Source of the DNA: Methylobacter sp.
GTDB taxonomy: Bacteria > Pseudomonadota > Gammaproteobacteria > Methylococcales > Methylomonadaceae
Direction of reading: 5' to 3'
NCBI RefSeq assembly: GCF_004322395.1
Contig: NZ_SCTW01000100.1
Location: 1-64,000, forward strand
DNA length: 64,000 nt
Of this stretch, positions 1 to 12,896 are shown piece by piece. Every line of letters begins with the position of its first letter. Position 1 is the first letter of the stretch. The notes under the pieces are model-generated. The model ran no database searches and was not told where the DNA came from. It was given only the letters and a program-made list of their open reading frames with translations. The position numbers and the translations under genes are program-made.

Positions 1-9
1 GGACAGGTT

Positions 10-648
10 TCATAAAGGCTCATATTTTTCATCAAAAAACTTAAATTCATTCAGCGGAAAATCAGGGAACTTTGTTTTGCTATTTTTTGTAGAAATAAGA
101 TTATCACTGCGGAATTTATCTTCAATGGCATTTCCCGTAAGGAAATTTATCGAGCGTTTTTCTTCTATACCGCAACCATCTTCGTCTTCTTTGTCATAAA
201 AACAAAAATGTTCATCTCGACCAGAAAAGCGCCAAGACTGATCGATCAGCGCAAACCGGTACGTAATTACACCAAGCGGTACAAAGTTATGCAAATTAAC
301 AGAAAAACTGCTGTCGGATTTTATTTCTACGCCATCCAAAACCTGTAAATTACCGCCAGAAAACCCACCAGAAGGGATTGAGCGGATAACTTCTTTAAAG
401 TTGTTGTTCTTCAATTTTTCTAAGATAAAGACACTAGCCAAATATGGGCTCATTTCGTCAGAAATATTTGCTGGTATACGCCACTGGACGGCACCAAATA
501 CATTTCCACTGCGAGAGAATTCAAAGCTTGAACTAACTATTGGCTGACCGTTGGTAAGATGTTCAAGATATGCTTCTACAGTGGTGAACGTTTCCGCAGT
601 TGCCCAGTTAGAGAACAGCAGTATAAACAGCGCGAAAAAATGTTTCAC
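10..648 (-). CDS. Hypothetical exported protein, cassette-borne
   Basis: This 212-residue protein is not recognised. Residues 1-19 form a clear signal peptide (MKHFFALFILL, ending in an ATA cleavage-type motif), so it is probably exported. The mature part is polar, without obvious repeats, and has a small cysteine cluster near residues 150-160 (HFCFYDKEDEDGCG) that could form a disulfide. It begins about 40 nt after the GTTGGAC core of an attC-like site at 685-773, on the same strand, as the next gene in an integron cassette array would. Its own attC would lie left of the window. No function is proposed. Confidence 0.7.
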   Translation of the reverse strand: MKHFFALFILLFSNWATAETFTTVEAYLEHLTNGQPIVSSSFEFSRSGNVFGAVQWRIPANISDEMSPYLASVFILEKLKNNNFKEVIRSIPSGGFSGGNLQVLDGVEIKSDSSFSVNLHNFVPLGVITYRFALIDQSWRFSGRDEHFCFYDKEDEDGCGIEEKRSINFLTGNAIEDKFRSDNLISTKNSKTKFPDFPLNEFKFFDEKYEPL

Positions 649-672
649 TGTAGAGATCTCCCAAAAATCGAA

Positions 673-1071
673 CTAGGGGTAGTTGTCCAACGTAGAGCTA
701 ACCGGGCGCGGCACGGAAAGCTGAAAAATAAAACCGCATTGTAACCGCGCTCCGGTTGAGCGCCATGTTAGGTTTTTTTGCCATGGGGAGCCACGCGGTT
801 CAACTAAATACCAATATACAAGCTCAGCTTGTGTGGCTGGCCAGAAGAATATGGTAGCAAGACCTTGTGCGGTGGAAATTCGCGGAGCGAGCATTGGGCT
901 GCCGAAATCTCCTGAAGAAATGTAATGTCCACCGACCTTTCTATTTTCACCAGCATCGGAATAATAGCCAGCACGGTGAATGAGCCAATTTTCACTACGG
1001 GCAACGCCATATGCTGCTGCATAGAGTAGGCAGAAGGTGACGATAATTGAGATTTTGGTTGCAGCTTTCAT
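673..1071 (-). CDS. Hypothetical membrane-anchored protein whose ORF reads through an attC site
   Basis: The 132-residue product is not recognised. Residues 7-24 form one hydrophobic segment that could be a signal anchor or an uncleaved signal peptide. The start lies 17 nt after a GTTAGGT core box (1088-1094) that would be the upstream recombination point of a cassette. The last 30 or so codons are encoded by the attC-like site at 685-773: the residues from NLTWRSTGARLQ onwards are translated attC sequence. Either the protein acquired this tail when the cassette formed, or the original stop codon was lost. A shorter ORF overlaps it in another frame (804-1022) but has no better support. Coding status is moderately likely. 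Confidence 0.55.
   Translation of the reverse strand: MKAATKISIIVTFCLLYAAAYGVARSENWLIHRAGYYSDAGENRKVGGHYISSGDFGSPMLAPRISTAQGLATIFFWPATQAELVYWYLVEPRGSPWQKNLTWRSTGARLQCGFIFQLSVPRPVSSTLDNYP
685..773 (-). repeat. attC-like integron recombination site (89 bp)
   Basis: Read on the minus strand the site starts with ACCTAAC (773 to 767), fitting the RYYYAAC core, and ends with GTTGGAC (691 to 685), fitting GTTRRRY. Inside these, CTCAACCGGAGCGCGG on one side pairs with CCGCGCCCGGTTAG on the other, leaving single unpaired bases like the extrahelical bases that IntI recognises in folded attC strands. It lies between two small minus-strand genes, as attC sites do in cassette arrays. Assignment is by inspection; no integrase gene is visible. 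Confidence 0.75.
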
Positions 1072-1087
1072 TGCGCCTGCTATCGAA

Positions 1088-1147
1088 ACCTAACGTAATA
1101 TATACGACATCAATTGTCGTATAAAAAAACGCGTTGTCGTATATCCT
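1088..1147 (-). repeat. attI-like repeat region at the head of the cassette array
   Basis: On the minus strand two direct copies of ATACGACAA, about 23 bp apart, are followed by an inverted copy (TGTCGTATA) and then GTTAGGT at 1094-1088. Two direct repeats, then an inverted element, then a GTTRRRY core box is the arrangement of known attI sites. The inverted pair TATACGACA/TGTCGTATA with a 5-bp spacer (about 1100-1122) could instead be a repressor operator for the cassette promoter. The nearest flanking gene is the end of the fused ATPase gene, not an integrase. Confidence 0.4.
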
Positions 1148-1301
1148 CCATACCATAGACCTACTTAATTGTTTTAATTAAACTTAATAGAACTCAACAG
1201 GACATAACGAATAAACAAATACGACTAATGAGCCGGGGTAGGATTATAACCCATATCGTAACGTTTCAAATGCGGCGACAGCCCAAATACAATCTAAATC
1301 A

Positions 1302-4300
1302 CTATATCCGCCGCCCAACCCGAATCCCAACCCACACCCATTCAAATAATTTACGCAATTCCTCAAAAACCAGCACAGTCGCAGCAACTCCAACCGCTAT
1401 CAGCCAATCCAGCTGCGTTAATGCGATGGTATGAAATATCCGTTGCGCGAGCGGCAAATATATGACCAGTATTTGCAGCATAATCACCCCGAAAATAGCC
1501 AGCCAAAGCAATCGGTTAGCGCAAAAATGCTGGTTGAAAGTCGTGCCTTTTTCCGATCTGGCATTAAACACATTAAACACCTGAAACAGCACAAAAGTCG
1601 TAAATGCCAGCGTCACGGCATGCGCCTCGCCTGCTCCCGACAGGCTTACGGCATCCCCGGCGATATCGCTTTCGCCGGTTTGCAAACCGTAATACAGCAC
1701 TCCCAAAGTACCGATAGCCATGGTCAAGCCGTAGCTGAAAAGATTGCCGAAACGGCGTAACGACAGTATCTGCGCGTCCGAGTTTCGCGGCGCTTCATTC
1801 ATGCTGCCGTTGCGGACGGGGTCAACGCCTAGCGACATGGCCGGCGGGCCGTCCATGATGATGTTGATCCACAGCAATTGCACGGCGGTAAACGGCACCG
1901 GCATGCCCAGCAGCGGGGCTCCGGCTACGGTCAGGATCGCACCGATATTAGTGGACAGCTGGAAGCGCACGAATTTGACCATGTTGTCGTAAATGCCTCT
2001 TCCTTCTTCGACCGCCTTGACGATGGTCGCAAAATTATCATCGGTCAAGATCATCGTTGCAGCTTCCTTTGCGACATCGGTGCCGGTGATGCCCATGGCG
2101 ATGCCTATGTCGGCAGTTTTCAAGGCAGGCGCATCGTTGACGCCGTCGCCAGTCATCGCGACTACATGACCGTCGAATCTCAAGGCTTTGACGATTCGTA
2201 CTTTCTGTTCGGGCGCAGTGCGGGCAAAGACGGTAATAGCGTTGATACGCGCGGCCAGAGCGTCATCGTCCAGTCCGGCCAATTCTTCGCCGTCGATCAC
2301 TTCGCCGGACAAACCCAGCTCCTGGGCAATCGCAAAAGCGGTCACTTTCTGGTCGCCGGTAATCATTTTGACCGCGATACCGGCCTGTTGGCAGAGCTTG
2401 ATGGCCTCACGGGCTTCGGCTCTTGGCGGGTCCATCAAACCGACCAGCCCGACGAAGGTAAGCTCCTTAATATACTGGAACAGATCGCTATCTGCTTGAT
2501 AGTCGGCTGCGGGCAGCGTGCGAACCGCCAGACCCAATACTCGCAGGCCAGTACTCGCCATGGTTTGGTTTTCGGCCAACAGTTCAACTTGCCGAATCGG
2601 GAGCGAGTCGCCATTGTTATCAACGACAGAATGACACAGTTTGAGCAAGACTTCAGGCGCGCCCTTAATAAACACCTTGATCCGGTCGCCCTGTCGATGG
2701 AAAGTCGCCATGAATTTATGCTCGGCATTAAAAGGGATTTCGGCGATGCGCGGCAGTTGCGAGAGTGCCTGTTCTTTGTCAATACCGCCTTTGGCGGCAA
2801 GCACCAGTAACGCTCTTTCCATCGGATCGCCAACCGCCTGCTTATCTTGAAAATGGCTGTTGTTACACAAGGCTAAAGGCAGCAATAAATCCGCTAAATC
2901 ATCGGCTATATCGCCGCCGCTAACGGGCAAAATTTTACCGGCAAGCTCATAGCCCTCACCGCTGACTTTGTAGCTTCGGCCTTTATAAAAAATTGATCGC
3001 GCCGTCATCTGGTTGACGGTCAAAGTGCCGGTTTTGTCGGTGCAGATAACCGTCGTGCAGCCCAAAGTTTCGACGGCGGCCAAGCGTTTGACGATAGCGC
3101 GTTGGCGGGCCATGCGATGCATTCCCAATGCAAGGGTTACGGTGACTACTGCGGGTAATCCTTCGGGAATGGCCGCCACGGCCAAGGCAATCGCAGTAAA
3201 TACAGTCTGGATCAACGGTTCTCCGCGCCACAAGGCAGTGATAAACAATATCGCGATGATGCCAAGCGCGATCAAGGCCAGCCGTTTACCCAGACTGTCG
3301 AGCTGTATTTGCAACGGGGTATCTTGGTCTTCTGCCTCTGCCAATAGTCCCGCCAATTTGCCGATTTCGGTATCCATGCCGATAGCGGTGACTACCATTT
3401 CCGCACGGCCGCGGGTGACCGCATTGTTCATATACAGCATGTTGCTGCGCTCGGCGAGCGGTATCGTTTCCAGCTCGAATGCCTGATGCTGCTTGGAAAC
3501 CGGCATCGACTCGCCAGTCAGCGCGGATTCATCGACTTCCAAGGTGTGACAGGAAATAATACGGCCGTCTGCGGGGATTTTATCGCCGGGTTCCAGAATG
3601 ACTATGTCCCCCGGCACCAGTTGATCGACGGGCAGCTGAACGGTATCGCCGTCTCGGCGCACAGCGGCCTGCAACCCGAGCATACTCTTAAGCGCGGCCA
3701 ATGATTTTTCGGCCTGAAATTCCTGATAAAACCCGAGTAGCGCGTTAATAGTCACAACTACCAAAATGACTGCACCATCTGTTAAATCGCCGATCGTAGC
3801 AGACACGACAGCTGCAAAAATCAGCACCAAAATAAGAAAACTTTTAAATTGGGATAACAGTAAATACCAGGCTGAACGCGGCGGTTTTTCGGTCAGTTGG
3901 TTGAGTCCGTAGCGATCTTGTCGATCTGAGGCGACTGCTTGGCTCAAGCCGGTAGAGGCATCAGTAGCCTGTGCCGAAAGCGTTTCCTCGACCGACAGGG
4001 TATGCCAACCGGGCTGAGGTAGATCAGGAGGAACTGCCGAATCTGAAGTCTCTTCTTCATGCTTTTGCAACTTCAGCCATGATTGCCATACAGACAGCAA
4101 AACGGCCAGAATCACCGGGCCTAAAAACAGGCCGATAGCGCCGAATGCCGTGAGTCCGCCAAGAACGCCGAACAACACCACCAGAAAAGGTATCCGCCCC
4201 GCACCGCTGATAACTAGCGGCCGGATTATATTATCCACTGTGCTGATCGCAAAAAAACCCCAAAGCAACAGTCCTATGCCCTGAAAAGGCTGTTCCGTAA

Positions 4301-5111
4301 CTATCAGCATGATACCTAGAGGCATCCATACCAGCGTCGCGCCCATCGGAATCATCGCCAACAGCGCGGTGACCGCCCCAAACAGCACCGGAGCTTTGAC
4401 GCCGGCAATAAAGTAACCCAATCCGGCTAACATTCCCTGGCCCAGCGCTGCAAGCACTAAGCCGTAAACCACGGCTCGGGTAGTGTGCCCTGCAGCTTGC
4501 AGATAAACATGCTGATATTTCCCTAAAAACCGCACCAGGCCTTGATGCAGCTGTTGAATGGCTTCTTCCCCGTCACGAAAACAAAAAAACACCGTCACCA
4601 GAATAACGCCCAGTTTCATAATGTAATTACCGACACCGCCGAGAAACGTTGCAAATTGGCCTGACCATTGCTGTGCCCAGTTAGCAAATTGCCCCATCAC
4701 TGCGGCTCGGTCATCGGCCAGCCGATCTAACCAGACCTGCATAGTGTTGCCCAACCACGGAATGCGCTTGATGAAATCCGGCAGGCGATAAGTATCCGGA
4801 CTAAAACCGCTGATCAGGGCTTGATAAGCGATTTTTAGCTCTTCTTGCAACATGGCAAGCAGCCAGTAGACTATCAATAAGATGACTGCTGCAATAATCG
4901 CCGTCATCAATGCTGCACTGAGCGTGGCATTGTCTTTGAGCCGTTGCCTTAAGTACCGATAAGGCGGCCATACTGCATAAGCGATGATCAGTGCCCAGGT
5001 CAGGGTGAGCAATAACTCACGCAGCACCATAAAGCCCAACAATAAAAGACCAGTCAATAAAATGCCTGGAATGAGCTGCCGTATTAATGTGTTACTCATA
5101 AAATCATTCAT
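1302..5111 (-). CDS. AI-2E-type permease fused to P2A-type cation-transporting ATPase
   Basis: One uninterrupted 1269-codon frame encodes two membrane proteins. Residues 1 to about 350 match the AI-2E/PerM (UPF0118) family: several membrane helices, a central soluble stretch and the C-terminal LFLGPVILAVL pattern. After a short polar linker (KHEEETSDSAVPPD), residues from about 374 form a full P-type ATPase of the Ca2+/Mg2+ (P2A) type: an N-terminal cation-ATPase segment, the TGES actuator motif at about 532, PEGLPAVVT in the membrane, the phosphorylated Asp692 in DKTGT, a TGDGVNDAP hinge near 985 and a C-terminal bundle of hydrophobic helices. Each half has normal family length, and no frameshift or internal stop is seen. 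P2A ATPases export divalent cations using ATP; the permease half's substrate is unknown. It could also start at the internal ATG of codon 5. The fusion is unusual. Confidence 0.9.
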   Translation of the reverse strand: MNDFMSNTLIRQLIPGILLTGLLLLGFMVLRELLLTLTWALIIAYAVWPPYRYLRQRLKDNATLSAALMTAIIAAVILLIVYWLLAMLQEELKIAYQALISGFSPDTYRLPDFIKRIPWLGNTMQVWLDRLADDRAAVMGQFANWAQQWSGQFATFLGGVGNYIMKLGVILVTVFFCFRDGEEAIQQLHQGLVRFLGKYQHVYLQAAGHTTRAVVYGLVLAALGQGMLAGLGYFIAGVKAPVLFGAVTALLAMIPMGATLVWMPLGIMLIVTEQPFQGIGLLLWGFFAISTVDNIIRPLVISGAGRIPFLVVLFGVLGGLTAFGAIGLFLGPVILAVLLSVWQSWLKLQKHEEETSDSAVPPDLPQPGWHTLSVEETLSAQATDASTGLSQAVASDRQDRYGLNQLTEKPPRSAWYLLLSQFKSFLILVLIFAAVVSATIGDLTDGAVILVVVTINALLGFYQEFQAEKSLAALKSMLGLQAAVRRDGDTVQLPVDQLVPGDIVILEPGDKIPADGRIISCHTLEVDESALTGESMPVSKQHQAFELETIPLAERSNMLYMNNAVTRGRAEMVVTAIGMDTEIGKLAGLLAEAEDQDTPLQIQLDSLGKRLALIALGIIAILFITALWRGEPLIQTVFTAIALAVAAIPEGLPAVVTVTLALGMHRMARQRAIVKRLAAVETLGCTTVICTDKTGTLTVNQMTARSIFYKGRSYKVSGEGYELAGKILPVSGGDIADDLADLLLPLALCNNSHFQDKQAVGDPMERALLVLAAKGGIDKEQALSQLPRIAEIPFNAEHKFMATFHRQGDRIKVFIKGAPEVLLKLCHSVVDNNGDSLPIRQVELLAENQTMASTGLRVLGLAVRTLPAADYQADSDLFQYIKELTFVGLVGLMDPPRAEAREAIKLCQQAGIAVKMITGDQKVTAFAIAQELGLSGEVIDGEELAGLDDDALAARINAITVFARTAPEQKVRIVKALRFDGHVVAMTGDGVNDAPALKTADIGIAMGITGTDVAKEAATMILTDDNFATIVKAVEEGRGIYDNMVKFVRFQLSTNIGAILTVAGAPLLGMPVPFTAVQLLWINIIMDGPPAMSLGVDPVRNGSMNEAPRNSDAQILSLRRFGNLFSYGLTMAIGTLGVLYYGLQTGESDIAGDAVSLSGAGEAHAVTLAFTTFVLFQVFNVFNARSEKGTTFNQHFCANRLLWLAIFGVIMLQILVIYLPLAQRIFHTIALTQLDWLIAVGVAATVLVFEELRKLFEWVWVGIRVGRRI

Positions 5112-5366
5112 ATCTATGACTCAAAAAAGTAAAAATAATCTGTCAACCCGATGTTAAAACTACATTGTAAGCCATAGTCATCTAATTATCAGTAATATAC
5201 GAGATGAGATTTATCCTATGGGTGCTCTGCTATATAATGATTTTCGCACGCCTTAATGAGGGACAATAACTCTTGCTGAAATATGCATCACCCTCTCATA
5301 CAAGTCCTAATCAGGAATAAAATTGCACACTCGACTTAAGATTTCTGCCGACTACCGGATAGCGCA

Positions 5367-6554
5367 ATGAATCTCGACATCCGTACGATGATGGTGATGA
5401 TCTCCGCGCTGTGCCTGATGTTTTCAGGCTTGCTGATATTAGCGGGATTACATGCCGGTAAGATCCGAGGAGTTCAACATTGGGCACTGGGCAGTTTATA
5501 CATCGGGCTGGGGCTAGGCTTTTCTTATATTATCCAACAAAAATCATCCGGCAGCGCTTGGGTTCTGGTATTTGGCGCTACGCTGATGGCGGCGGGTATA
5601 GGTTTGCAATTCAACGGCATCCAGGCATTCAAAAAGGGTTGCAGCAATGGATACATTCCATGGTTATTGGCCGGGCTGGTGTTTATTCAGAGCATATGGT
5701 TAGTTATCCTCCATCCGGATATCCATGCCCGAGTCATCGCCAACTCGGTTGTGTTCGCCTTGAGCAACGCAGCCTGCGCCTATGCCTTATTCATCCGCAT
5801 AGAACAACCTTTACGCACCGCGTATTGGTTTACCGGGACATCATTCGCTGTAGTTGCAATAATGTTTCTAGCCAGGGCAATAATTGTTTTTCTATCCCCA
5901 GCCGACACCTATACCCTTTATTCGCAAGTTACTATCAATCCTGTATCGTTTTTTATTGGCAGCATCGCACAAATGTGCCTGGCTTTCGGATTCGTGCTGA
6001 TGCTGAATTACCGGCTTGCCGCGGATCTGCAAAAATTGGCGGCGAGCGATGCGCTGACTGGAGCTCTGAATCGGCGCAGTTTGGAACAGGAAGCCACCCG
6101 GCTGTCAGCTCGCTGTACTCGTACCGGAGATACGCTGGCATTAATGATGATTGATGTCGATCATTTCAAATCCATCAACGATCGCTACGGTCATCCTGCG
6201 GGAGATTCTGTGTTAAAGCATCTTACTGCAATAGCGCAAAAGACCATCCGTAGCGACGATTATTTCGCTAGATATGGGGGCGAGGAATTTTGCATTCTAT
6301 TGCCATCCACCCTGGAAAAAGATGCCTGGTTACTGGCGGATCGCTTGCGTCAAAACTATGCTGAAATGGCGATGAAGTTCAATGACGAAGTCCTGCACAG
6401 CACCGTCAGTATCGGCGTTTCCGATTCACTACATGCCGGAGTTGAATTTGCCTCATTGGTAGCCGCCGCCGATCAGGCAATGTATAGAGCCAAACAAGAA
6501 GGCCGCAACCGGGTAGTGCTGCATTCATTATGCTTTAATAAGGCTACTATATAG
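5367..6554 (+). CDS. Membrane-bound diguanylate cyclase (GGDEF)
   Basis: The 395-residue protein has about six or seven hydrophobic helices in residues 5-220, followed by a GGDEF domain. The active-site loop is GGEEF at about residue 304, and the metal-binding MIDVDHFKSINDRYGH block precedes it, so it should condense two GTP into cyclic di-GMP. No RxxD inhibitory site is obvious just before GGEEF. The N-terminal membrane part resembles generic 7TM-type sensors and its ligand is unknown. The gene stands alone, divergent from the fused ATPase gene and convergent with tatD. A PilZ-domain gene lies 1 kb downstream, but that PilZ belongs to a conserved housekeeping cluster, so a direct link is not implied. 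Confidence 0.9.
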   Translation: MNLDIRTMMVMISALCLMFSGLLILAGLHAGKIRGVQHWALGSLYIGLGLGFSYIIQQKSSGSAWVLVFGATLMAAGIGLQFNGIQAFKKGCSNGYIPWLLAGLVFIQSIWLVILHPDIHARVIANSVVFALSNAACAYALFIRIEQPLRTAYWFTGTSFAVVAIMFLARAIIVFLSPADTYTLYSQVTINPVSFFIGSIAQMCLAFGFVLMLNYRLAADLQKLAASDALTGALNRRSLEQEATRLSARCTRTGDTLALMMIDVDHFKSINDRYGHPAGDSVLKHLTAIAQKTIRSDDYFARYGGEEFCILLPSTLEKDAWLLADRLRQNYAEMAMKFNDEVLHSTVSIGVSDSLHAGVEFASLVAAADQAMYRAKQEGRNRVVLHSLCFNKATI

Positions 6555-6631
6555 CTCAAGCTTTATTCGCAACAGCGATTCGGAATAGCCAAACTCTTTT
6601 TGTAGTGTTAGCGATCCCTGATTGGAATGAT

Positions 6632-7411
6632 TTAATGCTGTACCGTTTTGAATAATCTGTAGAAGTTTTCTGTAGATGACACTGCAATTTCATTTATCGT
6701 TGTTCCGCGCAACTTAGCCAGTTGTTCTGCAACATAACGCACGTAGATGGGATAGTTGGGTCTTCCGCGAAATGGTACCGGCGCAAGATAGGGCGAGTCG
6801 GTTTCTATTAAGAAACGGTCGGCAGGTACTTTTTTGGCGACTTCCTGGATTTCCTTGGCGCTGTTAAAAGTGACAATGCCGGAAAACGAAATATAAAAAT
6901 TCAAATCCAACGCCTTTTTGGCAAATTCCCAGTCTTCGGTAAAACAGTGAATAATCCCCCCTACTTCATTGGCGCCCTCTTCTTGCAGGATGCGTAAAGT
7001 ATCGTGTTTGGCTTCGCGGGTATGGATAATCAATGGTTTATCCAATATTTTTGCGGCGTTAATATGATTTCTGAAACGCTGATGTTGCCAACCTAAATCG
7101 CCTTCGCTGCGAAAATAGTCCAGACCGGTCTCGCCTATGCCTATAACTTTATCAGGACGGCCTAAAGCGATAAGCTCTTCGACACTGGGGTCATGACCCT
7201 CGTGGCTGTTAGGATGCACTCCGACAGTCACGGATATTTGCGGATAGGAAGATACCAAGTCCAGCATTGCCGGATAGGATTCCAAATCTATCGATATACA
7301 TAACAGGTGTTCGATTTGACTGTTTGCCGCTTCGTTCATGAAACAGGCAAAATCATTTTGATAAGGCGCAAGATCGATACGATCCAGGTGGCAATGGGAA
7401 TCTATTAACAT
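6632..7411 (-). CDS. tatD: TatD family metal-dependent hydrolase/deoxyribonuclease
   Basis: This is a TIM-barrel hydrolase of the TatD family (about 259 residues), which acts as a 3'-5' exonuclease on DNA. The metal ligands are visible in order: DSHCHLD at the N-terminus, GETGLDY, IIHTRE, IIHCFTED and ETDSPYLAP. The start is set at the ATG giving MLIDSHCHL, the usual N-terminus of the family; a TTG-initiated extension of eight residues upstream is less likely. It ends the cluster mltG-tmk-holB-pilZ-tatD, the order known from Pseudomonas and other gammaproteobacteria. A palindromic repeat separates it from pilZ. Confidence 0.9.
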   Translation of the reverse strand: MLIDSHCHLDRIDLAPYQNDFACFMNEAANSQIEHLLCISIDLESYPAMLDLVSSYPQISVTVGVHPNSHEGHDPSVEELIALGRPDKVIGIGETGLDYFRSEGDLGWQHQRFRNHINAAKILDKPLIIHTREAKHDTLRILQEEGANEVGGIIHCFTEDWEFAKKALDLNFYISFSGIVTFNSAKEIQEVAKKVPADRFLIETDSPYLAPVPFRGRPNYPIYVRYVAEQLAKLRGTTINEIAVSSTENFYRLFKTVQH

Positions 7412-7430
7412 GAAAGTTTTTATAAAAGCA

Positions 7431-7512
7431 GGCAAAGGGCGAAAGGCACAAGGCTAAGGGCGGGGTGTATTGACGCTCAGGTTTTTTCTCCTTTAGCCTT
7501 GTGCCCTTTGCC
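7431..7512. repeat. Imperfect palindromic repeat between pilZ and tatD
   Basis: The left arm (7431-7459) and right arm (7490-7512) are inverted copies built from GGCAAAGGGC and AAGGCACAAGGCTAA. The whole gap between the two genes is this element. Related short phrases occur near 61815-61860. It looks like a small dispersed palindrome of the REP kind and could fold in the pilZ-tatD transcript. Confidence 0.6.
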
Positions 7513-7863
7513 TCACATAGTATGCGTCGGACGATCGCCTTCTAAAGAACCGGCCAGATAGTTTTCTATTTTATTGCGCGATACGCCGCCGTCCTGATCG
7601 CTAAACTGTACGCCGACGCCTCTGGCTCTATAGCCTTCCGAGCCGGGCGGAGTTATCCAGATTATTTTCCCGGCTATCGGCAGCCGTTCGGTTTCCTCCA
7701 TTAAATTGAGCAGCATGAATACTTCCTGCCCCATTTCATATTCACGGTTGGTCGGAATGAATAGCCCGCCGTTGATAACAAAAGGCATATAGGCTGCGTA
7801 TAATGCGGTTTTATCTTTAATTGAAAGGGACAATATGCTTTGTCCGGCTCCTGCATCTGCCAT
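7513..7863 (-). CDS. pilZ: PilZ domain protein (type IV pilus PilZ)
   Basis: This 116-residue protein is a single PilZ domain, with the central GGLFIPT and GKIIWITPPG segments typical of the PilZ ortholog needed for type IV pilus assembly. The arginine-rich RxxxR c-di-GMP binding motif at the N-terminus is absent, as in Pseudomonas PilZ, which does not bind the nucleotide well. It follows holB by 2 nt and sits in the conserved holB-pilZ-tatD order, supporting this assignment over a generic c-di-GMP receptor. It would act in the cytoplasm with the pilus assembly ATPase. Confidence 0.85.
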   Translation of the reverse strand: MADAGAGQSILSLSIKDKTALYAAYMPFVINGGLFIPTNREYEMGQEVFMLLNLMEETERLPIAGKIIWITPPGSEGYRARGVGVQFSDQDGGVSRNKIENYLAGSLEGDRPTHTM

Positions 7864-7865
7864 GG

Positions 7866-8864
7866 TTATTTACTCCGGTTAAGTTCGTACCATTGTATTA
7901 AAATTTCTTCAAACAATAACTGTCTGTTTATTTGCGTATCCAGCCGTTGCCGACTTAATAATAATAGATCATACAACTTATAAAGTCCTTTTAATTCTAG
8001 CCGTTTGGCCAGTTCTTGCAACTGTCCGCTCAAATCCGGATTATATAAATTTTCGACCTGAGTGTGATAAAAACATTTAATCAGGTCGATGTTCCATGAT
8101 GTCATCCAGAACATCAAAGGCTCTGCCGGTAGCTTGTGCCAGTCTTCGGCAACAATGATTGGGGATTTATGCTGCCTTGCTATTGCCAGCCATGACTTGA
8201 AACATTCATTGCGCAAAGTTAATGTTTGCTCATTAACATAATCCAGTGCCAGCAAAGGAGCGCCTTGTGCTAGAGAGACGTAGTAATGCAAGTCCTCCTT
8301 TTGCAACAGGGGGGCTTTCTGTAATGTCTCCTCTGCCAGCCAACTCACTATAGCGTCCTTATCCGGAGTCGCTACTGCCAGCTTCTGGCAACGGCTGATG
8401 ATAGTCGCCGGCAGTTTGCCCGGTTTTTCGGTGATTAATATAAGCAAGGTACGCTCGGTCGGCTCTTCCAAACATTTTAAAAATGCGTTGGCTGCGGCAT
8501 TATTCATCTTATCCGCAGGATTGATAATAACGATACGATGAGTCTCATACTGGGGCTTTAAGGTTAACCGGGTAATCAGGCTGCGTATTTGCCCGATAGT
8601 AATGCCTTTGCCCGTTTCTTCAGGCTGTACCTGAATAAAATCGGGGTGTGTATCGGCATTAAACAGCAAGCAGCTGCTGCAAAGACCGCACGCTGTGCCG
8701 TTTGCTTTAGGTGTTGCGCAAAGCAGGGCAACGGCGAATTGACCGGCCAACTGCTGCTTGCCGAGCCCTTTATTGCCGGTGATGAGTAAAGCTTGGGGAA
8801 CGCGTTTTTGCGCGCTATAACTGCAAAGATGCTCCCATAAATGCTGTTGCCAAGGCAGAATCAT
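7866..8864 (-). CDS. holB: DNA polymerase III subunit delta'
   Basis: The 332-residue product is the delta-prime subunit of the clamp loader, which works with tau/gamma and delta to open the sliding clamp. Visible features are a P-loop-like GNKGLGKQQLAG near residue 30, the zinc-binding cysteines in CATPKANGTACGLCSSC at about 50-66, and the downstream sensor segment NAAANAFLKCLEEP. The start codon overlaps the end of tmk by 4 nt (ATGA type), implying translational coupling. Length and order (tmk-holB-pilZ) are standard. Confidence 0.92.
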   Translation of the reverse strand: MILPWQQHLWEHLCSYSAQKRVPQALLITGNKGLGKQQLAGQFAVALLCATPKANGTACGLCSSCLLFNADTHPDFIQVQPEETGKGITIGQIRSLITRLTLKPQYETHRIVIINPADKMNNAAANAFLKCLEEPTERTLLILITEKPGKLPATIISRCQKLAVATPDKDAIVSWLAEETLQKAPLLQKEDLHYYVSLAQGAPLLALDYVNEQTLTLRNECFKSWLAIARQHKSPIIVAEDWHKLPAEPLMFWMTSWNIDLIKCFYHTQVENLYNPDLSGQLQELAKRLELKGLYKLYDLLLLSRQRLDTQINRQLLFEEILIQWYELNRSK

Positions 8865-9535
8865 TTAACGAGGCCCTGCCTGGTGGAAGGGGTCGGGCAA
8901 TTCAATGCACACAAGCCTAACAAAGGACGAAGCACATCGGTAATGGCTCTTTGCACGTCAGGTAACGGTTGATTGGCTTTGATAAGTTTGATGCGCTCCG
9001 GATGCAGTTCGGCCTGCAATAAATAAGCCCGTCTTACATTTTCAAAAAAACTGATCTTTTCCGACTCGAAACGATCGAAAGCTCCGCGCTCTCTAACGCG
9101 CGCGATACCTATCTCGACCGGCGCGTCCAACAACAGTGTTAAATCAGGCCTTAATGTGCCTTGCACCATATTTTCCAACCATTTTATAGTGCTGATTTTC
9201 ATATTCCGGCCGCCGCCTTGATAAGCGTAGGTAGCGTCTGTGAAGCGATCGCAAAGCACCCATTTTCCTTGCGCCAACGCCGGTTCGATGATGTGTTTGA
9301 TGTGCTGGGCTCTAGCCGCGAACATCATTAATAACTCGGCCTGATCTGAAATAGCCTCGCTTTCTTTATCCAGCAATAATTCGCGTATCTTTTCGGCCAA
9401 GCGAGTGCCGCCGGGCTCGCGTGTCACAACGACCGATATATTATGTTGTTCCAGGTAGTCTTTGATAAAAGCCAGATTGGTAGTTTTACCTACCCCTTCT
9501 CCGCCTTCCAGGGTAATAAATTTCCCTCTGATCAT
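8861..9535 (-). CDS. tmk: Thymidylate kinase
   Basis: Thymidylate kinase phosphorylates dTMP to dTDP for DNA synthesis. The 224-residue protein shows the P-loop EGGEGVGKTT at residues 10-19, the REPGGT substrate motif near 40, and the DRFTDATYAYQGGGR segment near 95-110. The C-terminal end, after about residue 205 (LCALNCPTPSTRQGLVK), is longer than in the Escherichia coli enzyme. It overlaps mltG upstream and holB downstream by 4 nt each, so the three are probably one transcript. Confidence 0.93.
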   Translation of the reverse strand: MIRGKFITLEGGEGVGKTTNLAFIKDYLEQHNISVVVTREPGGTRLAEKIRELLLDKESEAISDQAELLMMFAARAQHIKHIIEPALAQGKWVLCDRFTDATYAYQGGGRNMKISTIKWLENMVQGTLRPDLTLLLDAPVEIGIARVRERGAFDRFESEKISFFENVRRAYLLQAELHPERIKLIKANQPLPDVQRAITDVLRPLLGLCALNCPTPSTRQGLVK

Positions 9536-10560
9536 TTTTTATTCCTTTGAAACTTGTCGACGGCCAATTTGTGGTCTTTTAAAGTCGCTGAAAATACATG
9601 CGTACCGTCACCGCGGGCTACGAAATAAAGACTGTCGCTTTTGTCAGGATGCAGAACGGCATAAAGCGCATCTCGTCCGGGCATCGCAATCGGCGTTGGC
9701 GGCAAGCCGCTAATGACATAAGTATTGTAGGGTGTGGCTGTGGTTAAATCTTTAGACTTAATATCGCCCTGATAGCTTTCGCCCATGCCGTAAATAACGG
9801 TAGGATCGGTTTGCAACAGCATATTTTGTTCCAATCTGCGGATAAACACCCCGGCTATTAAAGGTCTTTCAGCAACTGCTCCGGTTTCTTTTTCGACAAT
9901 CGAAGCGAGAATCAAGGCTTCATAAGGCGTTTTAAACGGCAGGCCTTCCGTTTTGTTGAGCCATTCCTGCTGCAACACCCGTTGCATTTTGTCGTAGGCT
10001 CTTTTTAATAAAGCCACATCGGATGTGTGTTTCTCAAAAAAATAAGTATCAGGAAAAAACAAGCCTTCTGGCGATGCAGGAGCATCCGGATTGAATTTTG
10101 TCATTATGCTTTTAAAATCAACGCCGTTTAACGTATGCTCAATATTGGGATTTTTCTCAATTTCATGCAGTATTTCCTTAAAGCTCCAACCTTCCGGAAA
10201 TGTAATAGGGTGTTGCTTGGTTTTCCCTTGAACGAATAGCTTTAAGATTTTAGGTATAGTCAAACCGGAAGTTAACTCGTATTCTCCAGTTTTAAGTTTT
10301 TTGAGCGCGCTTTCCTGAAAGGCGATGACTTTAAACCAGAATGGTTTAACAGCCAGTTTTTGATCTACAAGTTTATCGATAATGTGACTAAGCGAATCGC
10401 CTTTTTCAATTTCTATAACAACAGTTTTATTTATCAACGCTGGCTGATATAACGCCCTTTGATAGTCCATCCACAGCCAGCCGCTTACAAAACTTAAAAT
10501 CAATAAAGCAAAACCAATGATTTTATGGTTCTTTGTTAAAAATTCCGGCAACCGCTTCAT
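9532..10560 (-). CDS. mltG: Endolytic murein transglycosylase MltG
   Basis: MltG is an inner-membrane lytic transglycosylase that cuts nascent glycan strands and is thought to terminate their growth. The 342-residue protein has a short cytoplasmic head, one membrane helix at about residues 12-30 and a periplasmic YceG domain. The catalytic glutamate lies in LASIVEKET (about residues 215-223), followed by the conserved RLEQNMLLQTDPTVIYG and YNTYVISGLPPTPI blocks. It overlaps pabC by 4 nt upstream and tmk by 4 nt downstream. Order pabC-mltG-tmk-holB is conserved in gammaproteobacteria. Confidence 0.93.
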   Translation of the reverse strand: MKRLPEFLTKNHKIIGFALLILSFVSGWLWMDYQRALYQPALINKTVVIEIEKGDSLSHIIDKLVDQKLAVKPFWFKVIAFQESALKKLKTGEYELTSGLTIPKILKLFVQGKTKQHPITFPEGWSFKEILHEIEKNPNIEHTLNGVDFKSIMTKFNPDAPASPEGLFFPDTYFFEKHTSDVALLKRAYDKMQRVLQQEWLNKTEGLPFKTPYEALILASIVEKETGAVAERPLIAGVFIRRLEQNMLLQTDPTVIYGMGESYQGDIKSKDLTTATPYNTYVISGLPPTPIAMPGRDALYAVLHPDKSDSLYFVARGDGTHVFSATLKDHKLAVDKFQRNKK

Positions 10561-11405
10561 GCCTTATCCGCCTCCAGCCATGCAGTCTTACTGGTGGATT
10601 CGTTCAACCAGATTTGAATACTCTTGGTTATCGGGCCAACTGAAAAATGCATAGCTTCGATTTGCTTGATGGGCCAAATGCCGATAATTGAATTACAGAC
10701 GAATATTTCATCGGCCGATAATAACTCATTTTTCGTAAACAGATGTTCAATTACCGAAAGGCCATGGTCAACTGAAATCGTCATTACAATACCGCGAATA
10801 ATTCCGGCAACGCCTGATTGAGACAGTACTGATGTATAAAGACTATTGTTTTTAATGTAGAACAGGTTAGTCATTGTTCCTTCAATAACACGATCATTGA
10901 CATCCAGCATAAGCCCTTCCTGCACGGCTGAGTCGTTCCATTCAGCTCGTGCCATGACTTGTTCAAGCCGGTTCAGGTGTTTAATTCCTGCTAAGGTGGG
11001 ATTCAGGCCTAAACGAGTAGTACAAATACGGGCGACTATGCCTCGCTCTGAGTATATTTTCGGATAATCAGGATAGGGATGGAGACTTAATATGCGGGTG
11101 GGTTGAATGACATCAGGTTGGCGATAACCTCGCCCGCCTGTGCCGCGCGTGACTATGATTTTAAGCACAGCATGAGCTGAAGGCCATTGGCGGCAAAGTG
11201 CCTTAGCCTCAAGACTAAGCAATTGTCCATCCGGAAAAGGAATGTAAAGCCTGTCACAACCTGACTTTAAACGTTCTAAATGGCGTTCAAAAAAAACTGC
11301 TTTTCCGTCTCTAACTTCAATGGTCTCGAACAATCCATCGCCGTATTGAAAACCACGATCGGATATTTCGATATGCTCCTTGCTTTCACCATTGATGAGA
11401 ATCAT
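10557..11405 (-). CDS. pabC: Aminodeoxychorismate lyase
   Basis: PabC is a PLP enzyme of fold type IV that turns 4-amino-4-deoxychorismate into p-aminobenzoate and pyruvate for folate synthesis. The 282-residue protein shows the N-terminal ISDRGFQYGDGLFETI motif, the PLP lysine in AGIKHLNRLEQ (about residue 142) and the EGTMTNLFYI motif binding the cofactor phosphate. Its position between fabF and mltG is the usual one. D-amino acid transaminases share the fold, but context and motifs favour PabC. Confidence 0.9.
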   Translation of the reverse strand: MILINGESKEHIEISDRGFQYGDGLFETIEVRDGKAVFFERHLERLKSGCDRLYIPFPDGQLLSLEAKALCRQWPSAHAVLKIIVTRGTGGRGYRQPDVIQPTRILSLHPYPDYPKIYSERGIVARICTTRLGLNPTLAGIKHLNRLEQVMARAEWNDSAVQEGLMLDVNDRVIEGTMTNLFYIKNNSLYTSVLSQSGVAGIIRGIVMTISVDHGLSVIEHLFTKNELLSADEIFVCNSIIGIWPIKQIEAMHFSVGPITKSIQIWLNESTSKTAWLEADKA

Positions 11406-11499
11406 TTTTTTAGCCGGGCAGTATCCACAGGATGAATGACATTATGGCGAATGGCGGACGGAAAAGTCCTTACTTTTGGCGCCCATTTTACAAGGCTAA

Positions 11500-12744
11500 T
11501 TACTCATAGCGTTTAAAAACCAACGAACCATTAGTGCCGCCAAAACCGAATGAATTGGACATAGCTACATCGATCTTCATATTTCTTGCGACATTCGGCA
11601 CATAATCCAGATCACATTCAGGATCTTGATTTTCCAAATTGATGGTTGGTGGAGCGATCTGATTTTTGATACTTAATGCGGTCAGCACTGCCTCAATGCC
11701 GCCCGCAGCGCCTAATAAATGACCAATCATCGACTTTGTTGAGCTGACGGCAAGTTTATAGGCGTGGTCGCCCAATGCTGCTTTCATCGCCTGGGTTTCA
11801 CCTACGTCACCGGCCGGCGTTGATGTACCGTGAGCATTGATATAATCGACGGCATCGGCATTTAAACCGGCATCGCGCAACGCATTCTTCATACAACGTG
11901 CAGCGCCTTCGCCACCGATTGAAGGCGTAGTCATATGATAAGCGTCACCGCTCATGCCATAACCTACTAATTCAGCATAAATTTTTGCACCGCGCGCTTT
12001 AGCATGTTCCAACTCTTCTAAAACCACAATACCGGCACCATCGCTTAACACAAAGCCGTCACGGTCTTTATCCCAAGGGCGACTGGCGGCTTGCGGATCA
12101 TCATTGCGGCGAGACAAGGCTTTTGCCGAAGCAAAACCGCCCATTGCTGTTGGCGATGTAGTGCAGCGTTCAGCGCCACCCGCGACCATTACATCAGCAT
12201 CGCCATATTTAATTAAACGTGCCGCGTCGCCAATATTATGAGTGCCTGAAGAACAAGCTGTAACAATGGCAAAATTTGGACCTTTTAATCCATATTTGAT
12301 TGAAAGGTTGCCTGAAATCATGTTAATGATGTTACCAGGAACAAAAAACGGCGAGATACGGCGCGGACCGCTCTTATCATAGAGTGCGTAACATTCTTCA
12401 ATACCGGTAATGCCGCCTATACCCGATCCGATAGCAACACCGATGCGCTCGGCATTAGCCTCAGTTACTTCAATACCTGAATCCTCAATTGCCTGACTAC
12501 CCGCTGCAATTCCGTAATGGATGAAACCGTCCATGCGCTTAGCGTCTTTTTCTGGAATATATTGACCGGGATCAAAATTTCTTATGACGCCGCCGAAAGT
12601 AGTGGCAAAAGAAGAAATATCGAAAGAATCAATTGGACTTATGCCGCTTTTACCATTAATAATACCGTCCCATGTTTCTGAGACTGTGTTAGCTAAAGGC
12701 GTGATTGCGCCTAATCCAGTTATTACAACCCGACGTTTGCTCAA
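11500..12744 (-). CDS. fabF: 3-oxoacyl-ACP synthase II
   Basis: FabF condenses malonyl-ACP with long acyl-ACP in fatty-acid elongation and is needed for cis-vaccenate. The 414-residue protein has the catalytic Cys in TACSSGTHN near residue 163, the histidines in [11 protein letters not shown] and [11 protein letters not shown], and the C-terminal [13 protein letters not shown] loop. The start codon is TTG (12742-12744), chosen because the product begins [12 protein letters not shown] as in the family and no ATG fits. It lies downstream of acpP, separated by about 235 nt that contain a terminator-like hairpin, so FabF may be made at lower level than ACP. Confidence 0.95.
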
Positions 12745-12815
12745 TGTGGTTTACCGTAAGAAAAATAAAGGCGGGAAATGGGTTAGATATGTAGGCCGGA
12801 GTGTAACGGAACAAT

Positions 12816-12896
12816 CAAAAAGCACTCAGATGGGTAACGATACGCTCGGCAACCGCTCCTGCATCTTACTAGAGGCGCCTACTTGAGTGCTTTTTG
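12816..12896 (-). terminator. Terminator-like hairpin between acpP and fabF
   Basis: A perfect 13-bp inverted repeat (12816-12828 with 12884-12896) has arms CAAAAAGCACTCA and TGAGTGCTTTTTG. Read in the direction of transcription, the distal arm ends in a run of five T, like an intrinsic terminator with a 55-nt loop. It could attenuate readthrough from the highly expressed acpP into fabF. The loop could fold further and may itself be an inserted repeat. Confidence 0.5.

Follow-up and report, generated by a model that had tools for sequence, protein, structure and literature searches.

A single reading frame in a Methylobacter sp. genome raises the question of whether two complete membrane transporters have been joined in one polypeptide, and what such a chain could do. 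The frame lies within the first 64,000 nucleotides of contig NZ_SCTW01000100.1 (assembly GCF_004322395.1; this whole stretch is referred to as the window) and joins an AI-2E permease to a P2A cation ATPase. We consider the chances about even that Methylomonadaceae-type methanotrophs have here a genuine double transporter on a single chain, with the two halves cooperating in cation or pH homeostasis. The gene and the parts of its product are as follows.

1302..5111, minus strand: complete fused gene of AI-2E permease and P2A ATPase, 1269 amino acids, ATG start and TAG stop
4077..5111, minus strand: AI-2E (PF01594) permease, YdiK-like, residues 1-345 (Pfam match 14-344; PDB 7ot9)
4008..4076, minus strand: variable polar linker of 23 residues, 346-368 (length in fused proteins; model confidence)
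1305..4007, minus strand: P2A cation ATPase, SPCA/PMR1-like, residues 369-1269 (domain, profile and structure matches)
3507..3518, minus strand: TGES, dephosphorylation loop, residues 532-535 (translation; invariant in our alignment A3)
3153..3167, minus strand: PEGLP, M4 ion-site motif, residues 649-653 (25 of 25 fused proteins; same in human SPCA1)
3024..3038, minus strand: DKTGT, phosphorylation site, residues 692-696 (translation; 25 of 25 fused proteins)
2127..2153, minus strand: TGDGVNDAP, hinge, residues 987-995 (translation; TGDGVND in 25 of 25 fused proteins)
1839..1871, minus strand: WINIIMDGPPA, M6 ion-site motif, residues 1081-1091 (25 of 25 fused proteins; same in human SPCA1)

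A preliminary description of this DNA, made from the sequence without database searches, had read one frame with an AI-2E permease and a P2A ATPase, both of full family length, with TGES, DKTGT and TGDGVNDAP and a short polar linker. All of this was borne out, with Pfam domains found on both halves of the 1269-residue frame. The ATPase start, placed at residue 374, needs a small correction, as homology begins at about residue 369. The AI-2E_transport model matched residues 14-344 with 130.9 bits against a cut-off of 34.3, covering model positions 4-325 of 327. The ATPase half carries Cation_ATPase_N (369-437), E1-E2_ATPase (481-670), Hydrolase (688-1001), Cation_ATPase (747-828) and Cation_ATPase_C (1071-1256), and its homology spans residues 369-1257, that is, a complete P2A pump. 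TGES, DKTGT and TGDGVND were each present in all 25 aligned fused proteins, the window protein counted. Across these 25 proteins the linker is 15-24 residues long and variable in sequence. The AlphaFold model of residues 1-1200 was too poor for a fold search (mean predicted local distance difference test, pLDDT, 61; predicted template modelling score 0.36), and in this low-confidence model the pLDDT fell below 50 at residues 349-371, which is the linker region. The predicted product is one chain with two complete transporter domains and a variable linker, with selection on both domains.

To find related loci, the AI-2E parts from 16 fused proteins served as the query, and the best 80 of 124 matched loci were kept. 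The preliminary description had proposed a search for the same domain order in other genomes, and the AI-2E frame was indeed found to continue into a P2A ATPase in 38 of the 80 loci. Thirty of these 38 were complete, four were open at the end of the available sequence, and four stopped early. The fused gene was found in Methylobacter tundripaludum SV96 (L058, on a 2.9-Mb contig; L and G numbers are our labels for loci and genomes) and OWC-G53F (L062), M. psychrophilus Z-0021 (L078), Methylovulum miyakonense HT12 (L104), M. psychrotolerans Sph1 (L129) and metagenome-assembled genomes (MAGs) of Crenothrix polyspora. Among the 22 other genomes of the same genus, 10 have the fused frame, one being cut at the contig end and one (G003) carrying a different ATPase. 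The ratio of nonsynonymous to synonymous substitution rates (dN/dS) between the window gene and that of SV96 was 0.15 for the AI-2E part, 0.11 for the ATPase part and 0.40 for the linker; it was calculated by the Nei-Gojobori method with a simple correction, dS being saturated for more distant pairs. Purifying selection acts on both halves. The distances of the two halves also correlate (r 0.94; 300 pairs from 25 proteins), which reflects mainly shared ancestry and is descriptive only.

These data bear on the explanation that the long frame is an artefact of a frameshift, a misassembly or read-through of two genes. The preliminary description had named a frameshift or misassembly near 4050-4060, and separate genes in close relatives, as findings that would speak against the fusion. 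The latter are present in some species and lend the artefact some support, while the fused frame is present in many others. As for the former, none was found: the frame recurs in separate assemblies such as that of SV96. With this frame seen in many genomes that were assembled separately, such an error can in practice be dismissed. No ATG lies in frame among residues 330-420, and thus none at the junction; the four GTG/TTG codons in this range had no Shine-Dalgarno-like sequence upstream by a simple pattern test. The artefact was rejected and is hardly credible.

Some related loci are irregular. L111, labelled as an uncultured member of Geobacteraceae, carries a Methylococcales-type AI-2E-ATPase frame and is probably misbinned. 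The fused genes of L118 (4989-8756), L094 and L117 are broken by a stop or a frame break, which may reflect decay or an assembly error.

The ATPase half has human SPCA1 (628 bits) and LMCA1 of Listeria (542 bits) as its best solved relatives. Among the profile models, the PMR1-type model TIGR01522 scored best, at 781.4, falling just short of its cut-off of 798.3, and the PMCA-type model TIGR01517 scored 521.1, above its cut-off of 507.05. The M4 sequence AVAAIPEGLP and the M6 sequence WINIIMDGPPA are identical in SPCA1 (ATP2C1) and the window ATPase; unlike the window protein, SPCA1 and LMCA1 have no N-terminal permease. All 25 fused proteins have the Glu of PEGLP in M4 and the Asn and Asp in M6 of ion site II, motifs that were also aligned with SPCA1 and LMCA1, the conserved M4/M6 site being what we take to be ion site II of P2 pumps. 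The site I Glu of M5 is replaced by Ala in the window ATPase, as is to be expected of a one-ion pump. By sequence, the ATPase half is a P2A pump nearest to SPCA/PMR1 with one canonical ion site. The one-site pump LMCA1 is reported to transport one Ca2+ per cycle, with a proton thought to enter at the Glu of the site (PMC11977196).

The permease half is homologous to YdiK of E. coli (PDB 7ot9) over residues 11-347 (E 4e-26). The YdiK equivalog NF008216 is its best NCBIfam model, yet the score of 135.8 bits is below the cut-off of 305. YdiK itself, about 370 amino acids long, stands alone, whereas the window permease is the N-terminal half of a longer chain. The entry 7ot9 contains five chains, and we take YdiK to be a pentamer there. 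Whether AI-2E permeases export autoinducer-2 (AI-2) or act as Na+/H+ antiporters is under dispute. A UPF0118 protein of Halobacillus andaensis, of the same Pfam family as AI-2E, is reported to be a Na+(Li+)/H+ antiporter (PMC5379678, PMC7221264), evidence that cation/H+ antiport can be carried out by a member of the AI-2E family. The signature of its group is given as E179-R182-K215-Q217-D251-R292-R293-E296-K298-S307 (PMC7221264).

If the preferred reading holds, the pump would expel Ca2+ (or Mn2+) with ATP, taking H+ in exchange, in the manner of the one-site pumps LMCA1 and SPCA. The AI-2E half would be active as a secondary permease, serve the homeostasis of cations or pH, and stay beside the pump at 1:1 stoichiometry. 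P2A pumps have their N-terminus in the cytoplasm, which would place the linker there as well. The fusion would have arisen in Methylococcales and since then been repeatedly lost or rearranged. A local flux of H+ or cations could, for instance, link the work of the two halves. We think of them as cooperating, rather than being joined by accident, because a different AI-2E or a Na+/H+ exchanger can take the N-terminal place of the AI-2E part.

Such replacement was found in several lineages. In G526, G550 and G552, an ATPase of the window subfamily (57% identity) is fused to an AI-2E part that is only 30-31% identical; the three ATPases form one clade with a support of 100. In G088 and G076 (L032 and L033), a PF00999 Na+/H+ exchanger is fused N-terminally to an ATPase of the same subfamily (59%), with TrkA_N in addition in G076. 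The order of these fusions is that of the window protein, with the secondary transporter likewise N-terminal, but the permease is PF00999 instead of AI-2E. Their ATPases form one clade beside the unfused one of G091. No further fusion of a Na+/H+ exchanger to the ATPase was present elsewhere in the class among the matches listed (274 genomes, two candidates scored in each). A change of the other partner is seen in L083 of G003, where the AI-2E part is 73% identical to that of the window and the identity drops at residues 350-370, the domain border. The ATPase of L083 belongs to another subfamily and shares 75-78% identity with copies in G008, G011 and G002 that are not fused; this swap is read from one MAG contig of about 3-fold coverage. 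The next relatives of the L083 ATPase include plasmid ATPases with a Na+/H+ exchanger gene beside them, directly in Marinobacter and Chelatococcus and one gene away in Agrobacterium. AI-2E and P2A genes are also neighbours on plasmids of Rhizobium sp. (with a 4-nucleotide overlap), Caballeronia and the haloarchaeon Haloplanus rubicundus, and in Xanthobacter a plasmid P2A gene adjoins a shortened AI-2E.

The preliminary description had suggested that ion export could be coupled to transport of another solute, and this partner swapping with other AI-2E proteins and a Na+/H+ exchanger gives the suggestion indirect support. It might further be supposed that there is a general module, in which a P2A Ca2+(Mn2+)/H+ pump is physically joined to a secondary transporter that can be exchanged, either AI-2E or a Na+/H+ exchanger, and the proton or ion flux of one half feeds the other. 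On this view, an AI-2E half that forms oligomers as YdiK does would gather several pumps round one permease assembly. We regard this broader idea as unlikely.

The fusion is lineage-specific and labile, and it is optional within the lineage. A model of the junction spanned it in one of 369 genomes of the class, the source genome, among the matches listed, and the idea of an architecture widespread in the class was rejected. The AI-2E tree has 83 rows, of which 40 are fused, 42 unfused and one (L093, state unknown) set aside; the fusion state changes at least 11 times on it, six changes being forced by starred branches. The ATPase tree was made by a quick method and has 80 rows (L159 was dropped as unknown; L171, with its start cut, was counted among those with no fusion). 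The 35 rows fused to a window-type AI-2E need five changes on this tree, one of them forced, so a single origin of the fusion may hold. The pump was lost in L077, where ATPase fragments remain just upstream of the AI-2E gene. Other arrangements are seen elsewhere: G025 (L079) has a reversed adjacent pair of two genes, ATPase then AI-2E, and in G008 and G021 the two are on different contigs.

Several observations weigh against cooperation of the halves. The residues of the antiporter signature are missing from the window permease, as judged by eye on the conserved prolines from the motif texts. Motif D reads IRRTVEPKVMG in the antiporter group versus VDNIIRPLVIS in the window protein, and the Asp of motif C is Ala. 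The assignment of the window AI-2E as a Na+/H+ antiporter from this signature was rejected, as these residues differ. G010 and G011 have a stand-alone AI-2E at the same locus, with the same GGDEF neighbour as the fusion in G007 and G019. L059 shows a loss of the pump: its permease ends at a stop codon and survives, with a decayed, shortened piece of the ATPase downstream. In these genomes the permease evidently manages without the pump. Outside the order, 12 genomes of the class have this ATPase subfamily in 13 places (57-65% identical to the ATPase part of L051), and all are unfused. None of the 13 places had an AI-2E or an exchanger in the available flanks, some of which were short or cut by the contig end, with a small query set; one had a weak Ca2+/Na+-antiporter-like neighbour. 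Of six AI-2E loci of other families, where the alignment had run past the stop codon, none had a P2A neighbour (tblastn with the domain set of this analysis). The plasmid records covering 80% of the query numbered at least two, at least three and at least five for the three fusion types searched. The AI-2E/P2A pairing is recurrent rather than demonstrably enriched.

A strong rival, which we rate at somewhat under an even chance, is that of two independent transporters held on one chain at equal stoichiometry without functional coupling, with the AI-2E half being at most a membrane anchor or a co-expression device. In the ATPase tree, 24 of the 38 rows that were neither fused nor cut had a hydrophobic segment of 19 residues (Kyte-Doolittle at least 1.6) upstream of the ATPase homology, with 14 lacking it. 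It suggests that a single N-terminal segment often replaces AI-2E and that some membrane element seems enough for the pump. The passive tether is also favoured by the linker being the least constrained part and by the frequent change of the fusion state. However, a mere anchor needs no full-length permease under purifying selection, and the reuse of whole transporters at the N-terminal place is left unexplained by it. The AI-2E half could also have lost transport and become a regulatory or sensing module of the pump, as its covalent N-terminal position ahead of the actuator domain and the poorly known function of AI-2E proteins in general would allow. We consider this improbable: the AI-2E part has full family length and strongly conserved residues in the fused proteins, and close unfused copies persist, so its own function is presumably kept.

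In the open-licence literature, no description was found of an AI-2E/P2A fusion or of an exchanger/P2A fusion, in line with the earlier remark that the pairing was not a described system. The architecture is apparently undescribed and made of two known families. It would be an unusual bacterial case in which a P-type ATPase and a whole secondary transporter share one chain. The covalent link to a well-understood pump, together with the exchanger swap on the same subfamily, offers a testable hint that some AI-2E proteins act in cation/proton homeostasis.

The source genome has five AI-2E regions, the fused one counted, and further P2-type ATPases with identities of 44% and 39%. In positions 1-9000 of the window, the search for known RNAs and riboswitches near the fused gene gave two matches, both far under the family gathering scores. 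Divergent from the fused gene lies a GGDEF-type gene (5367-6554, plus strand; named by eye), and its relatives adjoin the fusion in G007 and G019 and the stand-alone AI-2E in G010 and G011.

Other long frames and clusters with P2A ATPases were also seen. A long AI-2E frame in G856 was rejected, as it proved to be no such ATPase fusion, and the long frames of L251, L252, L256 and L257 had no second Pfam domain in their long N-terminal stretch. In L227 (G470; 2106-5627) and L253 (G478; 1489-4959), an N-terminal HlyIII (PF03006) membrane domain is in frame with a P2A ATPase, 42-43% identical, so here too a P2A pump is fused to a membrane domain. In the 1672-residue frame of L226 (G038; 1-3570), the ATPase of a P2A paralogue is followed by two HMBD heavy-metal-binding repeats, and frames of 1672 and 1677 amino acids are likewise present in G544 and G008. 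Clusters of NhaD, SulP, a universal stress protein and a P2A ATPase were found on a Thiothrix plasmid (L237) and in Methylobacter G011 (L288). In L039 (G008; 164-12859), three P2A ATPase genes of different subfamilies lie within 13 kb.

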